A program made the translations under genes and the position numbers. 64,000 nucleotides of DNA, taken from positions 1 through 64,000 of the IMG/VR virus record IMGVR_UViG_3300020222_002168. One strand, 5' to 3'. Origin of the DNA: a virus. The notes beneath the pieces are model-generated. The model was not told where the DNA came from, did not search any database, and worked only from the letters and a program-made list of their open reading frames with translations. Each line of letters begins with the position of its first letter. The first letter of the stretch is position 1. Below are positions 36,813 to 42,391 of the stretch, piece after piece.

Positions 36813-36900
36813 TGGTGGAGGGACGGGGACTTGAACCCCGAAGCCGCTTGCGCAACCGACAGATTAGCAATCTGCTCCAATACCATTATGGGACCCCTCC
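36813..36900 (-). tRNA. tRNA-Ser(GCT)
   Basis: Type II tRNA: acceptor GGAGGGG/TCCCTCC, anticodon stem-loop with GCT, long variable arm, T-loop TTCAAGT, encoded CCA. Last tRNA of the array in the direction of transcription. Confidence 0.9.
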
Positions 36901-36901
36901 A

Positions 36902-37060
36902 TTAATTTGGGACTACACGAGGCAGATAGGGAACTGATCTCGGCCCGTAGAGCTGCTGTAGCAGCCTGCGGGCTTCTTCGGCGCTTTCGGCACCTATCCG
37001 AACCTTGCGTTCTTCTGTGCCAGGCCCGGGTTCTCTGATCGTCGCTTCGTATAGTTTCAT
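36902..37060 (-). CDS. Small phage protein between tRNAs (52 aa)
   Basis: 52 residues starting MKLYEATIREPGPG, with IGAESAEEARRLLQQLYG, a pattern seen in small marine-phage proteins. Upstream in-frame codons are inside tRNA-Leu, so the ATG at 37060, only 5 nt after the tRNA's CCA, is the start. Function unknown. Confidence 0.6.
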   Translation of the reverse strand: MKLYEATIREPGPGTEERKVRIGAESAEEARRLLQQLYGPRSVPYLPRVVPN

Positions 37061-37065
37061 ATCTT

Positions 37066-37148
37066 TGGTGCCCCAGGAGAGACTCGAACTCTCACGCACT
37101 AGGCAACGGCTTCTAAGACCGTCATGTCTACCATTCCACCACCGGGGC
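37066..37148 (-). tRNA. tRNA-Leu(TAG)
   Basis: Anticodon arm ACGGT, loop CTTAGAA, GCCGT; acceptor GCCCCGG pairs with CTGGGGC; T-loop TTCGAGT; encoded CCA. Confidence 0.9.
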
Positions 37149-37163
37149 ATTAATCTTAATAGT

Positions 37164-37192
37164 ATTATGTATTCTAAATCTTCAGTTGTCAA
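37164..37192 (-). promoter_or_regulatory. Sigma70 promoter inside the tRNA array
   Basis: Minus strand TTGACA (37187-37192), 17-nt spacer, CATAAT (37164-37169). It lies between tRNA-Phe and tRNA-Leu(TAG) and reads into the latter. Confidence 0.7.
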
Positions 37193-37200
37193 CGGAAATA

Positions 37201-37276
37201 TGGTCCCAACTCTTGGAATCGAACCAAGCCCTTCTGTGCTTCAAACAGACGCTTCCACCAGGTTAGCTTAATCGGG
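37201..37276 (-). tRNA. tRNA-Phe(GAA)
   Basis: Acceptor CCCGATT pairs with AGTTGGG; anticodon arm TCTGT, loop TTGAAGC, ACAGA; T-arm CTTGG/CCAAG; encoded CCA. Loop ends in GC rather than AA, slightly unusual. Confidence 0.8.
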
Positions 37277-37278
37277 TT

Positions 37279-37354
37279 TGGGCAGGTGGACGGGAGTTGA
37301 ACCCTATCTTACTGTTTCACAGACAGTTGTGCGCACCGGTACACTATCCCCTGC
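37279..37354 (-). tRNA. tRNA-His(GTG), mismatched 3' half
   Basis: Anticodon arm ACTGT, loop CTGTGAA, ACAGT. The 5' G opposite discriminator C matches the His identity element. The acceptor has two mismatches and the T-stem (TAGGG/CCCGT) two more, so the 3' part may have come from another tRNA. Confidence 0.75.
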
Positions 37355-37360
37355 ATTGTT

Positions 37361-37435
37361 TGGCACCGCCGCCACGAGTCGAACGTGAAACTAAACCTTC
37401 GCAAAGTTTCGTGATATCCCTTTCACCACGGCGGT
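37361..37435 (-). tRNA. tRNA-Arg(GCG)
   Basis: Acceptor ACCGCCG/CGGCGGT perfect; anticodon arm AAACT, loop TTGCGAA, GGTTT; T-arm TCACG/CGTGG; encoded CCA. A protein gene's 3' end overlaps it. Confidence 0.85.
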
Positions 37436-37594
37436 ATCTTTCTCCAGCGCATCTCTGCGCATCTTGAATGAGCGATGCTCGTCGGGACGATGGACTATGA
37501 GATATTCTACTCCGTCAATCTGCTCGACGGCACGAGTATCTTCGCAGACGAATCGCTCACCATTCAATCGATTTCTAAATGTTACGGGTTTCAT
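37391..37594 (-). CDS. Small phage protein running into a tRNA gene
   Basis: 67 residues starting MKPVTFRNRLNGERFVCED, with VEYLIVHRPDEHRSFKMRRDALEK, a conserved marine-phage small protein. The last 15 or so residues are read from the 5' half of tRNA-Arg(GCG), on the same strand. An AAAGGAGA ribosome site precedes the ATG. Confidence 0.7.
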   Translation of the reverse strand: MKPVTFRNRLNGERFVCEDTRAVEQIDGVEYLIVHRPDEHRSFKMRRDALEKDTAVVKGISRNFAKV

Positions 37595-37612
37595 ATCATT
37601 CTCCTTTATGTT

Positions 37613-37687
37613 TGGCCGGTCCGGAGAGATTCGAACTCCCGACTGCTGGTTTCGAAGACCAGAACTCTTCCACTGAGCTACGGACCG
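37613..37687 (-). tRNA. tRNA-Arg(TCG)
   Basis: Acceptor CGGTCCG/CGGACCG; anticodon arm CTGGT, loop CTTCGAA, ACCAG; T-loop TTCGAAT; encoded CCA. Confidence 0.9.
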
Positions 37688-37782
37688 ATGTTCCCGAGAT
37701 GCTGCTTACCCGCGACAGCATAGTCTCTACTAACCTTATAGGCACCCGGCTGGATTCACTGTACAAAGACTGGAACATAGTT

Positions 37783-37872
37783 TGGTGGAAGCGGTGAGAT
37801 TCGAACTCACGGACCCTTTCGGATCGTCTGTTTTCAAGACAGGTGCATTCAGCCAGGCTCTGCCACACTTCC
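37783..37872 (-). tRNA. tRNA-Ser(TGA)
   Basis: Type II. Acceptor GGAAGTG/CGCTTCC; anticodon arm CCTGT, loop CTTGAAA, ACAGA (outer pair mismatched); long variable arm; encoded CCA. Its 5' 20 nt recur in the chimeric tRNA-Cys copy at 37965. Confidence 0.88.
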
Positions 37873-37879
37873 ATAATAC

Positions 37880-37960
37880 TGGTGCCCCTAATCGGATTCG
37901 AACCGATAGTTATGACACTCCTTTTGAGAGAGCCGCCTTTACCTATTTGGCCATAGGGGC
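37880..37960 (-). tRNA. tRNA-Leu(CAA), intact copy 1
   Basis: Acceptor GCCCCTA/TAGGGGC; anticodon arm GCTCT, loop CTCAAAA, GGAGT; T-arm ATCGG/CCGAT; encoded CCA. Compact variable arm for a leucine tRNA. Confidence 0.85.
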
Positions 37961-37964
37961 ATAC

Positions 37965-38042
37965 TGGAGTGAGGAGTCGGATTCGAACCGACGGCTTTAG
38001 AGTTTTGCAGACTCTTGCATTGGGCCTCTCTGCCACACTTCC
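37965..38042 (-). tRNA. Chimeric tRNA-Cys(GCA), copy 1
   Basis: Body and anticodon (loop CTGCAAA) equal the intact copy at 38655, but the 5' acceptor GGAAGTG is that of tRNA-Ser(TGA) and cannot pair with the 3' strand TCCTCAC. The junction is the shared TGGCAGAG of the two D-arms. Probably not functional. Confidence 0.7.
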
Positions 38043-38050
38043 ATAATCTT

Positions 38051-38122
38051 TGGTGCCCCCAATCGGATTCGAACCCTCATAACCTGGCTTAGAAGGCCTG
38101 GCACAGCTCCATCTGCAGAGGC
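38051..38122 (-). tRNA. Chimeric tRNA-Arg(TCT)-like gene, copy 1
   Basis: Anticodon loop CTTCTAA with TCT, closed by CAGGC/GCCAG (one A-A mismatch). The T-stem 5' strand GAGGG does not fit CCGA T on its 3' side; that 3' end matches tRNA-Leu(CAA) instead. The acceptor can pair with wobbles. D-arm is short. Forms one boundary of a putative cassette. Confidence 0.6.
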
Positions 38123-38124
38123 AT

Positions 38125-38132
38125 TATAAATA
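38125..38132 (+). promoter_or_regulatory. T4-type late promoter TATAAATA
   Basis: Perfect TATAAATA ending 5 nt before the ATG at 38138; no room for a ribosome site. Confidence 0.7.
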
Positions 38133-38137
38133 CTTGT

Positions 38138-38344
38138 ATGAAAAAAATTAATACATTCTTTAGTCTTGCTCCGGCACCTGTGTTTCTACTAGGAGCCGTG
38201 ATAAGTTATTTGAATTCTCATCATGGTATAGAAATGCCCATGATGTGGTTAGTAATGTGTCTGGCTCACATAAGTCCGTGGCTTATGTGGTGGCAACAAA
38301 GATCTTTTCAAAAATTCCAAACTCTGCCCGACAAGCAACAGTGA
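38138..38344 (+). CDS. Small two-helix membrane protein
   Basis: 68 residues with two hydrophobic segments (about residues 7-25 and 35-51), ending in a Gln-rich basic tail. One of two genes inside the putative cassette in tRNA-Leu. Plus strand in an otherwise minus-strand region; a perfect late promoter supports it. Its 3' end overlaps the convergent gene by 37 nt. Confidence 0.55.
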   Translation: MKKINTFFSLAPAPVFLLGAVISYLNSHHGIEMPMMWLVMCLAHISPWLMWWQQRSFQKFQTLPDKQQ

Positions 38345-38556
38345 TAGTGTCCTGCTAGTACAGCAAGTATATCCAGGTAAAGATCCCATAACCGATCTGG
38401 ATACTGCTCATAGTACCCATCAGTGATAAAGCCTATGTCGTAGGCTCTGACCGTACCTTGAGGTCCACGGATATATAACCAAGTAACTGGTCCGTGATCA
38501 CTGTCTCGGACTACTTCTTGAGCAAATTCAAGACTGTTAATTTTTATCCAGTTCAT
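38308..38556 (-). CDS. Small cassette protein (82 aa)
   Basis: 82 residues starting MNWIKINSLEFAQEV; contains WLYIRGPQGTVRAYDIGF and ends near CCLSGRVWNF. No family recognised. Follows the 3' end of the interrupted tRNA-Leu by 13 nt, with an ATTAAATA late-like motif 4 nt before the ATG. Confidence 0.5.
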   Translation of the reverse strand: MNWIKINSLEFAQEVVRDSDHGPVTWLYIRGPQGTVRAYDIGFITDGYYEQYPDRLWDLYLDILAVLAGHYHCCLSGRVWNF

Positions 38557-38569
38557 TGAATATTTAATA

Positions 38570-38650
38570 TGGCCTCCCCGGTAGGAATCGAACCGATAGT
38601 TATAACACTCCTTTTGAGAGAGCCGCCTTTACCATTTTGGCCATAGGGGC
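38570..38650 (-). tRNA. Chimeric tRNA-Leu(CAA), copy 2
   Basis: 5' two-thirds match the intact copy 1 (acceptor GCCCCTA, loop CTCAAAA), but after the T-loop the sequence switches to CCTACCGGGGAGG plus CCA, which pairs with neither its T-stem nor its acceptor. The fitting 3' end (CCGAT, TGGGGGC) is found at 38051-38072. Confidence 0.7.
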
Positions 38651-38654
38651 GTTC

Positions 38655-38732
38655 TGGAGCAACGGGTGAGATTCGAACTCACGGTTTTAGAGTTTTGCAG
38701 ACTCTTGCATTGGGCCTCTCTGCCACCGTTGC
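38655..38732 (-). tRNA. tRNA-Cys(GCA), intact copy 2
   Basis: Acceptor GCAACGG/CCGTTGC perfect; anticodon arm AGAGT, loop CTGCAAA, ACTCT; T-arm GTGAG/CTCAC; encoded CCA. Confidence 0.9.
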
Positions 38733-38742
38733 ATGCATTTGG

Positions 38743-38772
38743 TCTCGGTTTTTATTTAGAAGAGAACCGAGA
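38743..38772. other. Perfect 8-bp hairpin
   Basis: TCTCGGTT and AACCGAGA with a 14-nt loop, downstream of the phosphoesterase gene on the minus strand. No U-tract follows, so it may be a processing or weak termination hairpin. Confidence 0.45.
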
Positions 38773-38778
38773 AAAACT

Positions 38779-39387
38779 CTAATCTACGATAGGGCCATTA
38801 CCGCTGCGGAAACCTATTTCGCCACCTTCCTCTTGGATACGCTTTATGACATCTTCGAATAAGATTGGTGCGAAATCGGGAGTTTGTTCTACACAGACAC
38901 AATGGTATCTAGGATCGATCTCATCGCTGTACAAAACAGCACCCGTTCTGGCATCAACTCCGCGGGCTTTCTTTACACGGTTGGCGTGTAAGTGTCCGTG
39001 AATGTTGGTACCGAAGCGACCCAAACTGTCACTGTGTACAGGAATGTGTGACAAGATCATTCCATTCATCACATGGTAAGCACGTAACTCACGGAAGTAT
39101 TCGCGGTATTCGTCATCACGAAAGATATCGTGATTACCGCGGATCAAAACCTTATCACCGTTCAAACGAGCCAAGGTTTTCATAGCCTTACGATTGATCA
39201 CCACATCACCGAGGTGGTAGACCTTGTCTGTGGGCTTAATCCTGTCGTTCCAGGCCTTGACCATGGCTTCGTCCATCTCATCTGGATCTGTCCAAGGTCT
39301 TAACTTCGTTACTCCGTCATTTCGAGTGAATCGGCACACGCCAGCGTGTCCGAAGTGCGTGTCCGATACTAAAAATACGCTAGGCAT
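38779..39387 (-). CDS. Calcineurin-like metallophosphoesterase
   Basis: About 202 residues from MPSVFLVSDTHFGHAG; longer in-frame codons upstream are tRNA sequence, and AAGGAGG sits 5 nt before this ATG. Metal motifs of the family: DTHFGH, LGDVV, RGNHD, SHIPVH and HGHLH in order. Expected to hydrolyse phosphodiesters or phosphomonoesters (cyclic nucleotides, RNA ends). Similar phage enzymes are common beside tRNA arrays; RNA-end repair is only a guess. Confidence 0.85.
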   Translation of the reverse strand: MPSVFLVSDTHFGHAGVCRFTRNDGVTKLRPWTDPDEMDEAMVKAWNDRIKPTDKVYHLGDVVINRKAMKTLARLNGDKVLIRGNHDIFRDDEYREYFRELRAYHVMNGMILSHIPVHSDSLGRFGTNIHGHLHANRVKKARGVDARTGAVLYSDEIDPRYHCVCVEQTPDFAPILFEDVIKRIQEEGGEIGFRSGNGPIVD

Positions 39388-39408
39388 CATGCCCTCCTTT
39401 CTTGAATG

Positions 39409-39483
39409 TGGCGTACCGGGAAGGATTCGAACCCTCACTAGCAGTTTTGGAGACTGTCGTGCTGCCGTTGACACTACCGATAC
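39409..39483 (-). tRNA. tRNA-Trp(CCA)
   Basis: Acceptor GTATCGG/CCGGTAC; anticodon loop CTCCAAA; T-arm GAGGG/CCTTC; encoded CCA. Confidence 0.88.
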
Positions 39484-39489
39484 ATAAAA

Positions 39490-39584
39490 TGGTACTCCCA
39501 CTAGGATTCGAACCTAGATCATCCCCTCATCTAGAGGCATCGCCCGGATATAAGCCGGGAGCTTTACCGTTAAGCTATGGGAGC
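39490..39584 (-). tRNA. Type II tRNA with TAT anticodon (Ile, AUA)
   Basis: All arms are regular: acceptor GCTCCCA/TGGGAGT, D-arm GCT/AGC, anticodon arm CCCGG, loop CTTATAT, CCGGG, T-arm CTAGG/CCTAG, CCA. The variable arm is about 25 nt with a CCTC/GAGG hairpin, which is normal for Leu, Ser or Tyr tRNAs and not for Ile. Amino-acid identity is therefore open. Confidence 0.85.
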
Positions 39585-39590
39585 AAAACT

Positions 39591-39665
39591 TGGAGCGGGT
39601 AGTCGGATTCGAACCGACGGCATTTTCCTTGGCAAGGAAACATTCTACCCCTGAATTATACCCGC
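39591..39665 (-). tRNA. tRNA-Gly(GCC)
   Basis: Acceptor GCGGGTA/TACCCGC; anticodon arm TTTCC, loop TTGCCAA, GGAAA; encoded CCA. Confidence 0.92.
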
Positions 39666-39666
39666 A

Positions 39667-40311
39667 TCATAATTTACTGATTTTAAAACCATAGACATGA
39701 CTCTTTACCGTTTCTGGTAAGAAATTCATGCTCATCGACACCCTAGGCACAGCGACTTTCTGTTGATCGTACCCATGCATCAGTTCGCTGGGCCATATTA
39801 ATAGATCCCCTTGGGACACAGGTATCAGATGTTTGTGTTTACTGTGCTCAGTTTCCTTGCTGCCGTTAACGTCTAGATAAGGTTTGAACAGACTGCTAGG
39901 TGACCTAGGGTTATGAAACTCTAGACCGCTGTGTATCTCAGAATCAAACTGTATGTAGTATGTGGCGCTGAAGAGACTATTTCCGTGGTTATGGGGATGC
40001 TGGAAACCTCCTATGTTAGCATTGATCCATACATTTAGATCTAGGAATTCTGTCTCTGTGATGCCAAAAAATTTCTCGCCGTAATCTTTCACACTGGATA
40101 AAATCCATCGATGTAGATCATGAAATTGTTCGTATTGCCGGAGATCAAGATCGCCATTTTGGAAAAAATGTATCAGCCCCGGCGTCTCACAGTAGGCTCG
40201 TTCTTTGGCATATTGGTCTAATATCGTTAGGAATTTGATCCTTAGATCTTCATTATCATCTCTGTGATATCTAGCGATAGGTACAGGAAAAAGGTCTACA
40301 TAGTTCTTCAT
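39667..40311 (-). CDS. 2OG-Fe(II) oxygenase (TIGR02466-type)
   Basis: 214 residues. LNVWINANIGGFQHPHNHGNSLFSATYYIQ, SGLEFHNPR, GDLLIWPSELMHGYDQQ and RVSMSMNF are the family's blocks; the His-x-His region and the distal His would hold iron. Cyanophages and pelagic phages often carry this type. It sits between tRNA-Glu and tRNA-Gly; a TATAAGTA motif ends 5 nt before the ATG. Confidence 0.8.
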   Translation of the reverse strand: MKNYVDLFPVPIARYHRDDNEDLRIKFLTILDQYAKERAYCETPGLIHFFQNGDLDLRQYEQFHDLHRWILSSVKDYGEKFFGITETEFLDLNVWINANIGGFQHPHNHGNSLFSATYYIQFDSEIHSGLEFHNPRSPSSLFKPYLDVNGSKETEHSKHKHLIPVSQGDLLIWPSELMHGYDQQKVAVPRVSMSMNFLPETVKSHVYGFKISKL

Positions 40312-40316
40312 TATTA

Positions 40317-40324
40317 TACTTATA
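40317..40324 (-). promoter_or_regulatory. Late promoter-like TATAAGTA
   Basis: One mismatch from TATAAATA, ending 5 nt before the ATG at 40311, just after the CCA of tRNA-Glu. Confidence 0.45.
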
Positions 40325-40332
40325 GTTGATAT

Positions 40333-40407
40333 TGGTACACGGTACGGGAGTCGAACCCGTCTCTACAGCGTGAAAGGCTGTTGACCTAACCGATAGTCGA
40401 ACCGTGC
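40333..40407 (-). tRNA. tRNA-Glu(TTC)
   Basis: Acceptor GCACGGT/ACCGTGT; anticodon arm ACAGC, loop CTTTCAC, GCTGT; T-arm GACGGG with TTCGACT; encoded CCA. Confidence 0.9.
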
Positions 40408-40414
40408 ATAACAC

Positions 40415-40487
40415 TGGTGCGTCGTGAAGGAATCGAACCCTCAGATAGCTGGCTTAGAAGACCTGCTCCCAATCTATTGGCAGAGGT
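40415..40487 (-). tRNA. Chimeric tRNA-Arg(TCT)-like gene, copy 2
   Basis: Anticodon loop CTTCTAA. The 5' acceptor ACCTCTG does not pair with its 3' strand ACGACGC (3 of 7). ACGACGC instead pairs perfectly with the 5' strand of the tRNA-Val gene 650 nt upstream. The D-arm is short. Boundary of a putative cassette. Confidence 0.65.
40426..40439. repeat. 14-bp direct repeat, T-loop of tRNA-Arg copy 2
   Basis: GAAGGAATCGAACC on the plus strand (T-arm of the tRNA on the minus strand), identical to 41150-41163. The two copies bound the 724-bp segment that would be exchanged. Confidence 0.75.
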
Positions 40488-40488
40488 A

Positions 40489-41127
40489 TTAATTCTTTAC
40501 TAACTGTTGAACAAAATTACGCAGCAGTAAATGATGTCTATATTCATGCCAGTGGGGTTTTAGATAACCTTTAGCATACCAATAGATATCACTTTCGGGA
40601 TGAGGTCCTATTAGGCCTATGTTGTTTTGTATAATAGCAGCTGGATCTTTATTAGCATATCTAGCTACTATATTGTAATCACCACCTTGATCCTCAAAGG
40701 TGCATCCGTCATAGAAATACATAGATTCAGTTTCACCTAACCAATCTATTTCTGCAACTGTTCCAAAACTTCTTTTAATTTCAGATCTAGGTCTTTTTAT
40801 GTATTGTACAGGTTCAACGCCTTGAAGTGCATTAAGATAATACGAGCCTGCCCAGTATGCACCCATACAAATACCAAGATACTTTTTGTTTCTTGCCAAA
40901 AAATTTAGCACAGTATCTTTGAAAGGTTCCATTATATTGTGCCAAGTATCACTATCTCCTAGTCCGCCCGGCACAGCTAAAACTTCATATTTTTTTAAAA
41001 TAGAATCTCTCAGATGATGACGTTCTATGCAATCTATTTCCCAGTCGTCGCTTAATGCTCTTATAATTCCGTGTGCGCTTTGCACACTACATTGAGGATG
41101 ATTTAAAAAAACAGATAACTTTTTCAT
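40489..41127 (-). CDS. Class I glutamine amidotransferase-like (BPL_N type) protein
   Basis: 212 residues from the ATG at 41127; earlier in-frame codons are tRNA-Val sequence. Blocks: LAVPGGLGDSDTW, KKYLGICMGAYWAG with the nucleophile Cys, and IGLIGPHPESD with His and Glu of the triad. This fits the BPL_N/DJ-1-like glutamine amidotransferase fold. Substrate unknown. It is the single gene of a putative tRNA cassette; its stop TAA abuts the 5' end of tRNA-Arg. Confidence 0.7.
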   Translation of the reverse strand: MKKLSVFLNHPQCSVQSAHGIIRALSDDWEIDCIERHHLRDSILKKYEVLAVPGGLGDSDTWHNIMEPFKDTVLNFLARNKKYLGICMGAYWAGSYYLNALQGVEPVQYIKRPRSEIKRSFGTVAEIDWLGETESMYFYDGCTFEDQGGDYNIVARYANKDPAAIIQNNIGLIGPHPESDIYWYAKGYLKPHWHEYRHHLLLRNFVQQLVKN

Positions 41128-41132
41128 AACCC

Positions 41133-41140
41133 TATTTATG
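41133..41140 (-). promoter_or_regulatory. T4-type late promoter CATAAATA overlapping a tRNA CCA
   Basis: CATAAATA on the minus strand, ending 5 nt before the ATG at 41127. Its first bases are the CA of the preceding tRNA's CCA. Confidence 0.6.
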
Positions 41141-41212
41141 GCACCCCCGGAAGGAATCGAACCTCCGTCTGTGCCTTGTAAGGGCACGGCCCTACCATTA
41201 GACGAACGACGC
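41139..41212 (-). tRNA. Chimeric tRNA-Val(TAC)
   Basis: Anticodon arm GTGCC, loop CTTACAA, GGCAC; D-arm and T-arm (GGAGG/CCTTC) fold. The acceptor does not: 5' GCGTCGT against 3' CGGGGGT pairs at 4 of 7. The 3' strand that fits GCGTCGT perfectly is at 40418-40424; the present 3' strand fits tRNA-Arg copy 2. Confidence 0.75.
41150..41163. repeat. 14-bp direct repeat, T-loop of tRNA-Val
   Basis: GAAGGAATCGAACC, identical to 40426-40439. Confidence 0.75.
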
Positions 41213-41216
41213 AAAA

Positions 41217-41295
41217 TGGTCCGAGTGGCAAGATTCGAACTTGCGACATCCTGCTCCCAAAGCAGGCGGAATGAACCAGGCTATCCTACACTCGG
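41217..41295 (-). tRNA. tRNA-Pro(TGG)
   Basis: Acceptor CCGAGTG/CACTCGG; anticodon arm CCTGC, loop TTTGGGA, GCAGG; encoded CCA. Confidence 0.9.
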
Positions 41296-41303
41296 AAAAA
41301 CTA

Positions 41304-41378
41304 TGGTGGAGATGGAGAGAATCGAACTCTCAATTCCTGCTTGCAAAACAGGTGTGTTCCCATTAGCACTACATCCCC
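41304..41378 (-). tRNA. tRNA-Ala(TGC)
   Basis: Acceptor GGGGATG/CATCTCC; anticodon arm CCTGT, loop TTTGCAA, GCAGG; encoded CCA. Confidence 0.9.
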
Positions 41379-41385
41379 ATTATAT

Positions 41386-41461
41386 TGGCTCCGGAGGCTG
41401 GGCACGATCCAGCGACATTTGGTTTAACAGACCAACGCTCTACCAACTGAGCTACTCCGGA
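41386..41461 (-). tRNA. tRNA-Asn(GTT)
   Basis: Acceptor TCCGGAG/CTCCGGA; anticodon arm TTGGT, loop CTGTTAA, ACCAA. The T-loop is ATCGTGC instead of the usual TTCRANN. Confidence 0.88.
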
Positions 41462-41471
41462 ACGGAAAACT

Positions 41472-41545
41472 TGGAGCGGCGAAAGGGAATCGAACCCTTG
41501 TCGTGAGATTGGAAGTCTCTCATTCTACCATTGAACTACCGCCGC
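41472..41545 (-). tRNA. tRNA-Gly(TCC)
   Basis: Acceptor GCGGCGG/TCGCCGC; anticodon loop CTTCCAA; T-arm AAGGG/CCCTT; encoded CCA. Confidence 0.92.
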
Positions 41546-41555
41546 ATCTAAAACT

Positions 41556-41630
<75 letters not shown>

Positions 41631-41653
41631 GTAAATCTACTTATCACAATCCT

Positions 41654-41728
41654 TGGCGGTCCCAACGGGAGTCGAACCCGTCCCTGCGCCGTGACAGGGC
41701 GCTATACTAACCGATATACTATGGAACC
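41654..41728 (-). tRNA. tRNA-Asp(GTC)
   Basis: Acceptor GGTTCCA/TGGGACC; anticodon arm with loop CTGTCAC; T-arm ACGGG/CCCGT; encoded CCA. Confidence 0.92.
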
Positions 41729-41866
41729 ATTAAGTGATAGCACGGTTTACTATCCTCTTGCTACCTGATGTTGGCAGATTATATCTGCCGTTTACCGGTA
41801 TCACAGGCTTCCCGCTTCGGACAAGGTTGGGATTGATCGATCCCTACGAGCCATGCTATCACTTAA
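41729..41866 (-). ncRNA. Structured RNA filling the tRNA-Tyr/tRNA-Asp gap
   Basis: About 138 nt exactly between the CCA of tRNA-Tyr and G1 of tRNA-Asp. Ends form a perfect 13-bp stem (TTAAGTGATAGCA with TGCTATCACTTAA). Inside: hairpins GGGAT/ATCCC and GGCAGAT/ATCTGCC (7 bp, 3-nt loop) plus a CTT-CCG/CGG-AAG stem. It would be cut free by tRNA processing. T4's tRNA region encodes similar stable RNAs of about 120-140 nt of unknown role. Confidence 0.75.
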
Positions 41867-41952
41867 TGGTGGATGCGGTAGGACTCGCACCTACGATGTT
41901 TCCCTGTCACGGTTTTACAGACCGCTGCCTTCGCTGCTCGGCACACGCATCC
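41867..41952 (-). tRNA. tRNA-Tyr(GTA)
   Basis: Type II. Acceptor GGATGCG/CGCATCC; anticodon arm GCGGT, loop CTGTAAA, ACCGT; long variable arm. The T-loop is TGCGAGT rather than TTCGAGT. First tRNA after the main promoter. Confidence 0.9.
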
Positions 41953-41960
41953 AGTGAAAA

Positions 41961-41989
41961 ATTATAACACTCTCCCGCTATGCTGTCAA
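41961..41989 (-). promoter_or_regulatory. Perfect sigma70 promoter for the tRNA array
   Basis: Minus strand TTGACA (41984-41989), 17-nt spacer, TATAAT (41961-41966), 8 nt before tRNA-Tyr. Confidence 0.9.
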
Positions 41990-42090
41990 CCGCTGTGCAG
42001 GCGGAGGTGGAGAGTGTGTAGTAAAATGCTCTCCGCGACTATGTCGGGTGTCCTCCTTGTCAACGGGAGTAGGAAAACATTTTACTACTC
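41968..42090. repeat. Nested inverted repeats upstream of the tRNA promoter
   Basis: ACACTCTCC (41968-41976) with GGAGAGTGT (about 42010-42018) encloses the -35 region, and GTAGTAAAATG (42019-42029) with CATTTTACTAC (42080-42090) forms an 11-bp pair. Could be operator-like or RNA structure. Confidence 0.6.
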
Positions 42091-42187
42091 TACCATTTTT
42101 TTATCCACACAAGGATAAGCCATCCGGTAGGCCGCCCGTTTATTTTTTAGAGTGCTGAAAGGACCTCGTTTCCACATGCACTGTGAT

Positions 42188-42219
42188 AAAAAAACCCCAG
42201 GTCTTTCGATCCTGGGGTT
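42188..42219 (-). terminator. Strong intrinsic terminator
   Basis: Minus strand stem AACCCCAGG/CCTGGGGTT with a 9-nt loop and a 7-U tract. It ends the leader RNA that starts near 42356. Confidence 0.85.
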
Positions 42220-42356
42220 CCGTGTAATCTTGTATCGTCCTAGACTATGCGGAACCCCTTGTACGATCATTTCCTAGGCCAAAACAGGGCTCTGACCAAT
42301 ATGTTATGGCCATCTGTTTTGCACTGGTTCTAATCGAATGAAGTTGTTTCATCATA
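42188..42356 (-). ncRNA. Leader/attenuator-type structured RNA
   Basis: Starts at a perfect sigma70 promoter and ends at the strong terminator, about 170 nt, no convincing ORF. A 9-bp antiterminator (GGGGTTCCG at 42250-42258 with CGGAACCCC at 42214-42222) overlaps the terminator's 5' stem, so the two exclude each other. A CAAAACAG/CTGTTTTG hairpin and a GACTATG/CATAGTC long pair add structure. Either a stand-alone small RNA or a regulated leader of the downstream tRNA region. Confidence 0.6.
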
Positions 42357-42362
42357 GTCCCT

Positions 42363-42391
42363 ATTATATAGACACTTTATTTAGTTGTCAA
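42363..42391 (-). promoter_or_regulatory. Perfect sigma70 promoter for the leader RNA
   Basis: Minus strand TTGACA (42386-42391), 17-nt spacer, TATAAT (42363-42368). Confidence 0.9.

Follow-up and report, generated by a model that had tools for sequence, protein, structure and literature searches.

A candidate ribosome-mediated attenuator covering nearly all amino acids upstream of phage tRNA arrays

We propose that a short leader upstream of the tRNA array in this virus record is a ribosome-mediated attenuator, and that it has been selected to encode the complete or nearly complete set of amino acids and would thereby sense a shortage of any aminoacyl-tRNA. We give this reading a probability of about 0.8. 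The leader contains a 36-codon ORF, overlooked in the initial annotation, that runs into one of two mutually exclusive hairpins; its relatives in other phage contigs keep a fixed geometry, amino-acid and codon completeness, and tRNA arrays downstream. We also lean, with less confidence, toward the wider proposal that leaders encoding all 20 amino acids act as a universal tRNA-shortage alarm in phages, inducing the tRNA array and a structured RNA as a counter-defense against host tRNases.

The leader locus and its alternative hairpins

The window, i.e., the whole stretch of DNA analyzed here, comprises 64,000 nt of a 99,528-base virus record. These features of its minus strand are referred to below:

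42363..42391, minus strand: sigma70 promoter of the leader, TTGACA-17-TATAAT, with TAAATAA in the spacer
42245..42355, minus strand: leader ORF of 36 codons, translated as MMKQLHSIRTSAKQMAITYWSEPCFGLGNDRTRGSA, stop TAG; homologues in L004 and L016
42250..42258, minus strand: antiterminator 5' arm, GGGGTTCCG, within the final codons of the leader ORF
42214..42222, minus strand: antiterminator 3' arm, CGGAACCCC, which pairs with GGGGTTCCG and overlaps the terminator 5' arm
42188..42217, minus strand: intrinsic terminator, CCCCAGG-ATCGAAAGA-CCTGGGG plus T7
42090..42182, minus strand: pseudoknotted RNA element, core GAAACGAGGTC...AAACGGGCGG at 42172-42132
42018..42088, minus strand: long hairpin, GTAGTAAAATG...CATTTTACTAC, the 3' part of the RNA region (inverted repeat I5)
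41961..41989, minus strand: second perfect sigma70 promoter, immediately upstream of tRNA-Tyr
36813..41952, minus strand: tRNA array, 22 tRNAs by ARAGORN plus others (ARAGORN, Rfam)

The initial annotation described a perfect sigma70 promoter followed by ~170 nt of structured RNA in which an antiterminator pairing excludes a strong terminator, and our results agreed with it on all three points. The promoter matched the consensus at 12/12 positions (42391-42363, minus strand), and the fold of the whole leader RNA had a z-score of -6.4, with 0/200 shuffles as stable. Computed folds gave -22.6 kcal/mol (z -6.3) for the antiterminator hairpin versus -15.5 kcal/mol (z -3.5) for the terminator hairpin, and the two cannot coexist, since the CCCC of the terminator sequence, CCCCAGG...CCTGGGGTTTTTTT (42217-42188), is shared with the antiterminator 3' arm. 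Unbound leader RNA was predicted to prefer the antiterminator, and the fold of the window leader showed no separate 1:2 (anti-antiterminator) hairpin. A further suggestion, that a 5' GACTATG can pair into the antiterminator loop region, survived only locally: the GACTATG/CATAGTC pairing is present here, but in the family such pairing is barely above shuffled sequences (longest run 4.37 vs. 3.91; at least 6 in 15/84), and it was rejected as a general feature. The GAC of GACTATG may not be transcribed, with the start so near the -10 box. Most leader promoters (42363-42391 in the window, and relatives) have a (T)ATAAATA-like motif, resembling a T4 late promoter, in the -35/-10 spacer and are possibly two overlapping promoters.

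The leader ORF opens with ATGATG, 7 nt after the -10 box; its final codons double as the antiterminator 5' arm, with its TAG inside the antiterminator loop. Since the 5' arm coincides with the last codons of an ORF, the arrangement points to a ribosome-mediated attenuator rather than to a riboswitch or T-box, and the sensor is most likely a ribosome translating the leader. The window ORF is probably leaderless. In 20/39 relatives with a promoter scoring at least 9/12, the -10 box ends 6-7 nt before the ATG, so many family leader mRNAs are probably leaderless as well; elsewhere in the family, some leaders carry a Shine-Dalgarno-like site instead.

The window leader peptide contains 19/20 amino acids, Val being the one absent, and uses 31 distinct codons in 36. 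Two homologues, L004 (leader peptide MMNKLHSIISSIKQMAYTWSVPCFGLENDRMRGSA) and L016 (MMNTLHSIISSKQLMAYTWSVPCFGLENDRTRGFA), retain the promoter, ORF, both hairpins, and downstream tRNA-Tyr despite changed sequence, with pN < pS in the ORF. Because these two diverged homologues keep the layout and the antiterminator arms covary across relatives, we conclude that the leader architecture is not due to chance. Relative to L004, the window leader has an in-frame 3-nt indel; the Glu of GLEN is gone, and the change of WSVP to WSEP retains a Glu at the cost of the sole Val. The missing Val was considered as a sign of an absent tRNA-Val, an idea that was rejected. A Val-type tRNA, missed by ARAGORN and found by Rfam, lies at 41150-41203 (minus strand), and its sequence suggests anticodon UAC.

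Composition and geometry of the leader family

The family was found by a pattern search for the RNA element 3' of the terminator (GAAACGAGGTC...AAACGGGCGG), which revealed about 80 uncultivated phage contigs with related leaders ahead of tRNA arrays. A script identified the leader ORF, antiterminator, and terminator at 83/105 RNA-element loci; the upstream sequence was short in 9/22 of the loci without a called leader. A search from the leader side gave about 75 loci (74 or 75), in contigs partly the same as those of the element-based set, and yielded 55 unique peptides, 36 of them new; the loci of all 55 carry the antiterminator. Matches to a 16-mer pattern were mostly chance, the homologues among them being a near-identical contig and L004 only. 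All family sequences are from uncultivated viruses. Searches with the DNA, the leader peptide, and the RNA element gave no homologue in annotated phages and no cultured relative, and a leader scan of stretches of T4, PPSC2, Kremar, Serratia phage BF, and Synechococcus phage BUCT-ZZ01 was likewise negative for comparable leaders. The pN/pS ratio of the leader family was 0.58 (156 pairs).

As judged from sequence comparison, the conserved property of these leaders is composition, not sequence. All 20 amino acids were encoded by 56/83 leaders, which fall into 34 clusters at 50% identity and have little sequence in common. The cluster representatives (n = 34) had a mean of 18.7 distinct residues versus 16.6 (sd 0.29) in protein fragments of the same length, with Trp present in 32/34 (expected 17.8) and Cys in 30/34 (expected 15.4). 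Within one homologous group, 30/31 leaders had all 20 residues compared to 10.8 (sd 2.2, max 19 in 1000) after column permutation, and in the leader-side alignment the figure was 53/55 compared to 27.3 (sd 2.7, max 35), although the permutation ignores relatedness and its tails are thus inexact probabilities. All 20 were likewise encoded by 34/36 of the new leader-side peptides. The single Cys of the leader-side set occupies at least 8 different alignment columns, i.e., it shifts position and is almost never lost. Codon diversity was also raised, with 1094 distinct codons versus 1024 (sd 10.6, max 1060 in 400) under synonymous reshuffling.

For comparison, ORF+terminator pairs were picked from 1.4 Mb by spacing alone, with no filter on composition or antiterminator. 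Near the RNA element, 84/89 of these pairs had an antiterminator and 76/89 encoded at least 19 amino acids, versus 4/24 and 1/24, respectively, elsewhere in the same sequences. The antiterminator arms covary: 148/200 pairs formed versus 124 +/- 3.6 when arms were swapped among loci, with arm pairs that are C-G in some loci and T-A in others. One antiterminator shuffle test was partly circular, since its leaders had been preselected for a good antiterminator. Distances were also constrained, as the stop codon lies 19-36 nt (median 25) from the terminator arm across the family. The residue that completes the set of 20 lies a median of 8 nt (IQR 5-10) upstream of the antiterminator arm, close to the point at which a stalled ribosome would start covering that arm. 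The full set is present at least 12 nt upstream of the arm in just 12% of leaders, although at least 18 of the 20 are found there in 83%.

The downstream RNA element and tRNA arrays

The RNA element 3' of the terminator (GGAAACGAGGUCC...AAACGGGCGG...; 42090-42182 of the window, minus strand) precedes tRNA arrays and was also seen in L018-L134 and L142-L216. The pattern search placed it in at least 119 viral contigs; five matches in 84,980 prokaryote genomes (GTDB) look like chance, with no surrounding conservation. Its 5' domain is a predicted pseudoknot in which 11/13 pairs change on both sides somewhere, and 0/500 shuffles reached any of five measures of covariation (35 sequences). The element had no Rfam match, and we consider this widespread phage RNA a candidate new RNA family. 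In the long hairpin that follows it in the window (42018..42088), both sides of the stem are altered in L004, L016, and L017. Approximately 100-200 nt 3' of the element core in L018, L032, L104, and others, long A/U-rich stems (GUAUUAAAGCAU...AUGCUUUAAUAC) hold highly variable inserts, some of which carry a T-arm-like GGUUCGAAUCC and resemble tRNA mimics or decoys. Many relatives also have a conserved-looking small ORF of ~60 aa between the terminator and the RNA element (L004:6485-6664); it is absent in the window, and it had no PHROGs match.

Read-through of the terminator was initially suggested to enter the tRNA region, and the family bears this out: at least five same-strand tRNAs lie downstream in 56/56 leader loci with at least 2 kb of downstream sequence. 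For RNA-element loci with at least 2 kb downstream, same-strand tRNAs were present in 69/69, with five or more in 68/69; the median at RNA-element loci was 16 tRNAs within 6 kb. tRNAs were also found downstream in 51/51 of the leader-side set. In the window, a second perfect promoter (41961..41989) directly precedes tRNA-Tyr, so this operon may also be transcribed independently of read-through. Few relatives have a good promoter immediately upstream of the first tRNA (score of at least 10/12 in 9/72).

The tRNA region of the window has further features of its own. The second promoter is within a 69-nt box before tRNA-Tyr (41953-42021, minus strand) that is 95-97% identical in phages otherwise much more diverged (L004, L017), and an inverted repeat in the box, CACTCTCC...GGAGAGTG, overlaps the promoter. 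A 145-nt stretch between tRNA-Asp and tRNA-Tyr (41726-41870) is closed by a 20-bp, 95% inverted repeat, and a weak permuted-tmRNA match occurs at 41837-41894 (E 0.99). A tmRNA gene is predicted in the phage record (G000:C1:77325-77692, minus strand, equal to L140:14325-14692; tag ANDAFFGETRLAA), and the tRNA-rich contig of one relative contains a permuted tmRNA (L017:14398-14621, minus strand) that matches Rfam RF04321 above the gathering score.

Proposed mechanism, alternatives, and known systems

From this arrangement we infer that the leader is translated, along with the direction of its response and its natural trigger. RNA polymerase would start at the ATG or a few bases before it, and a ribosome would load on the leaderless ORF. 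Efficient translation of the leader would mask the antiterminator 5' arm, so that the terminator forms and transcription stops. If any tRNA were depleted, the ribosome would stall upstream, and the free 5' arm would pair with the 3' arm, leaving no terminator; were a ribosome never to start the leader, the 5' arm would also be free, the antiterminator would form, and polymerase would continue. A read-through transcript would carry first the small ORF (in many relatives, not the window), next the conserved RNA, and then the tRNA array. The attenuator probably serves to turn on replacement tRNAs once those of the host are limiting, e.g., after cleavage by a host anticodon nuclease. According to theory, mild limitation has little effect on a leader in which each amino acid has a single codon (PMC1183508); a severe stall would therefore be the expected trigger, such as that caused by tRNA cleavage, which three reports describe for several host defenses (PMC10264068, PMC11555353, PMC12409363).

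Some points weigh against this mechanism. Because each amino acid has just one or two codons in the leader, chiefly severe stalls would trigger the switch, and a stall at one of the final sensed codons would leave the 5' arm partly covered by the ribosome. In the window, Val is missing from the leader even though the array includes a Val-type tRNA, and transcription of the array could start from the second perfect promoter, ahead of tRNA-Tyr, with no need of read-through.

The leader might instead report any slowing of the ribosome, with read-through resulting from general inhibition of translation and amino-acid make-up not being sensed. Its topology is indeed similar to that of the bmrB leader, where attenuation depends on translation (PMC4191407), but such a sensor gives no reason for selection on all 20 amino acids and unusual codon variety, and we consider it unlikely. 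Somewhat less likely still is that the leader peptide is itself a small functional phage protein, with a terminator that simply ends its mRNA and an incidental antiterminator. The pN/pS below 1 and a recurrent YWS...NDRTPE-like core in many leaders would be expected of a protein; however, all 20 residues are encoded far above column permutation across peptides as diverse as 34 clusters, and the exclusive antiterminator, with its covarying arms, overlaps the last codons in 84/89 cases.

The initial interpretation, an attenuator with exclusive terminator and antiterminator that acts as a riboswitch or T-box-like control, or else an independent small RNA, thus stands in its first part only. We regard a terminated small RNA with no part in read-through as improbable: although a perfect promoter and strong terminator bound ~170 nt and the window tRNA-Tyr has its own promoter, most relatives have no good promoter before the first tRNA, same-strand tRNAs are downstream in every leader locus checked, and both the coding signal and the antiterminator are conserved. 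Control of tRNA-related genes by a T-box or ligand riboswitch is highly improbable. A 5' leader with a terminator and antiterminator beside tRNA genes is what would be expected of one, but the region is coding, its relatives share a variable coding leader and not a conserved aptamer, and a covariance model search of the region returned no match to the T-box or another such Rfam family at E up to 5. At the gathering threshold, the only Rfam matches in the window were tRNAs, with no known riboswitch or sRNA family among them; sub-threshold matches were limited to MicA (opposite strand), Plastid-ycf2, and tmRNA_permuted.

A ribosome-mediated attenuator sensing any aminoacyl-tRNA shortage resembles the E. 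coli trp, his, thr, ilv, leu, and phe attenuators, in which ribosome position on a short ORF decides between an exclusive antiterminator and terminator. Known leaders of amino-acid operons carry repeated codons for one to three amino acids and regulate biosynthesis genes (PMC1183508). In contrast, all 20 amino acids occur in the phage leaders, most residues only a few times, and the genes under control would be those of a phage tRNA array; many of these leaders also look leaderless. The phage leaders nevertheless fit the structural definition of a leader-peptide attenuator: a short ORF under coding constraint overlaps the alternative structures, with the arm within the final codons in nearly all, the antiterminator and terminator are exclusive, and regulatory codons relate to the controlled genes in a broadened form, i.e., as coverage of all 20 amino acids before tRNA arrays. 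They would differ in what is sensed.

The nearest general-translation sensor is BmrB (YheJ), a 53-aa leader ORF of B. subtilis bmrCD at which attenuation responds to generally slowed translation; it differs in its signal, ribosome-targeting antibiotics, and its target, an ABC transporter (PMC4191407), and it is not reported as selected for amino-acid completeness. T-box riboswitches also link tRNA charging to the choice between terminator and antiterminator, but sense uncharged tRNA by RNA pairing and had no match in the phage leader. Phage tRNAs set against host tRNA-cleaving defenses have the same proposed purpose, the replacement of depleted tRNAs; in the searched passages of those reports, which concern tRNA genes and sequences, nothing was found on inducible control (PMC10264068, PMC11555353, PMC12409363). 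Leader-peptide attenuation is already known, while the all-amino-acid leader, of which no report was found, is new as far as the open-access literature shows. To our knowledge, no earlier leader-peptide attenuator senses the whole aminoacyl-tRNA pool.

Why phages carry large sets of tRNAs has long been debated, and little is known about the regulation of such sets. If our reading is true, tRNA arrays would be inducible by the loss of any tRNA, which fits the counter-defense idea, and the leader could serve as a portable biosensor for tRNA depletion.
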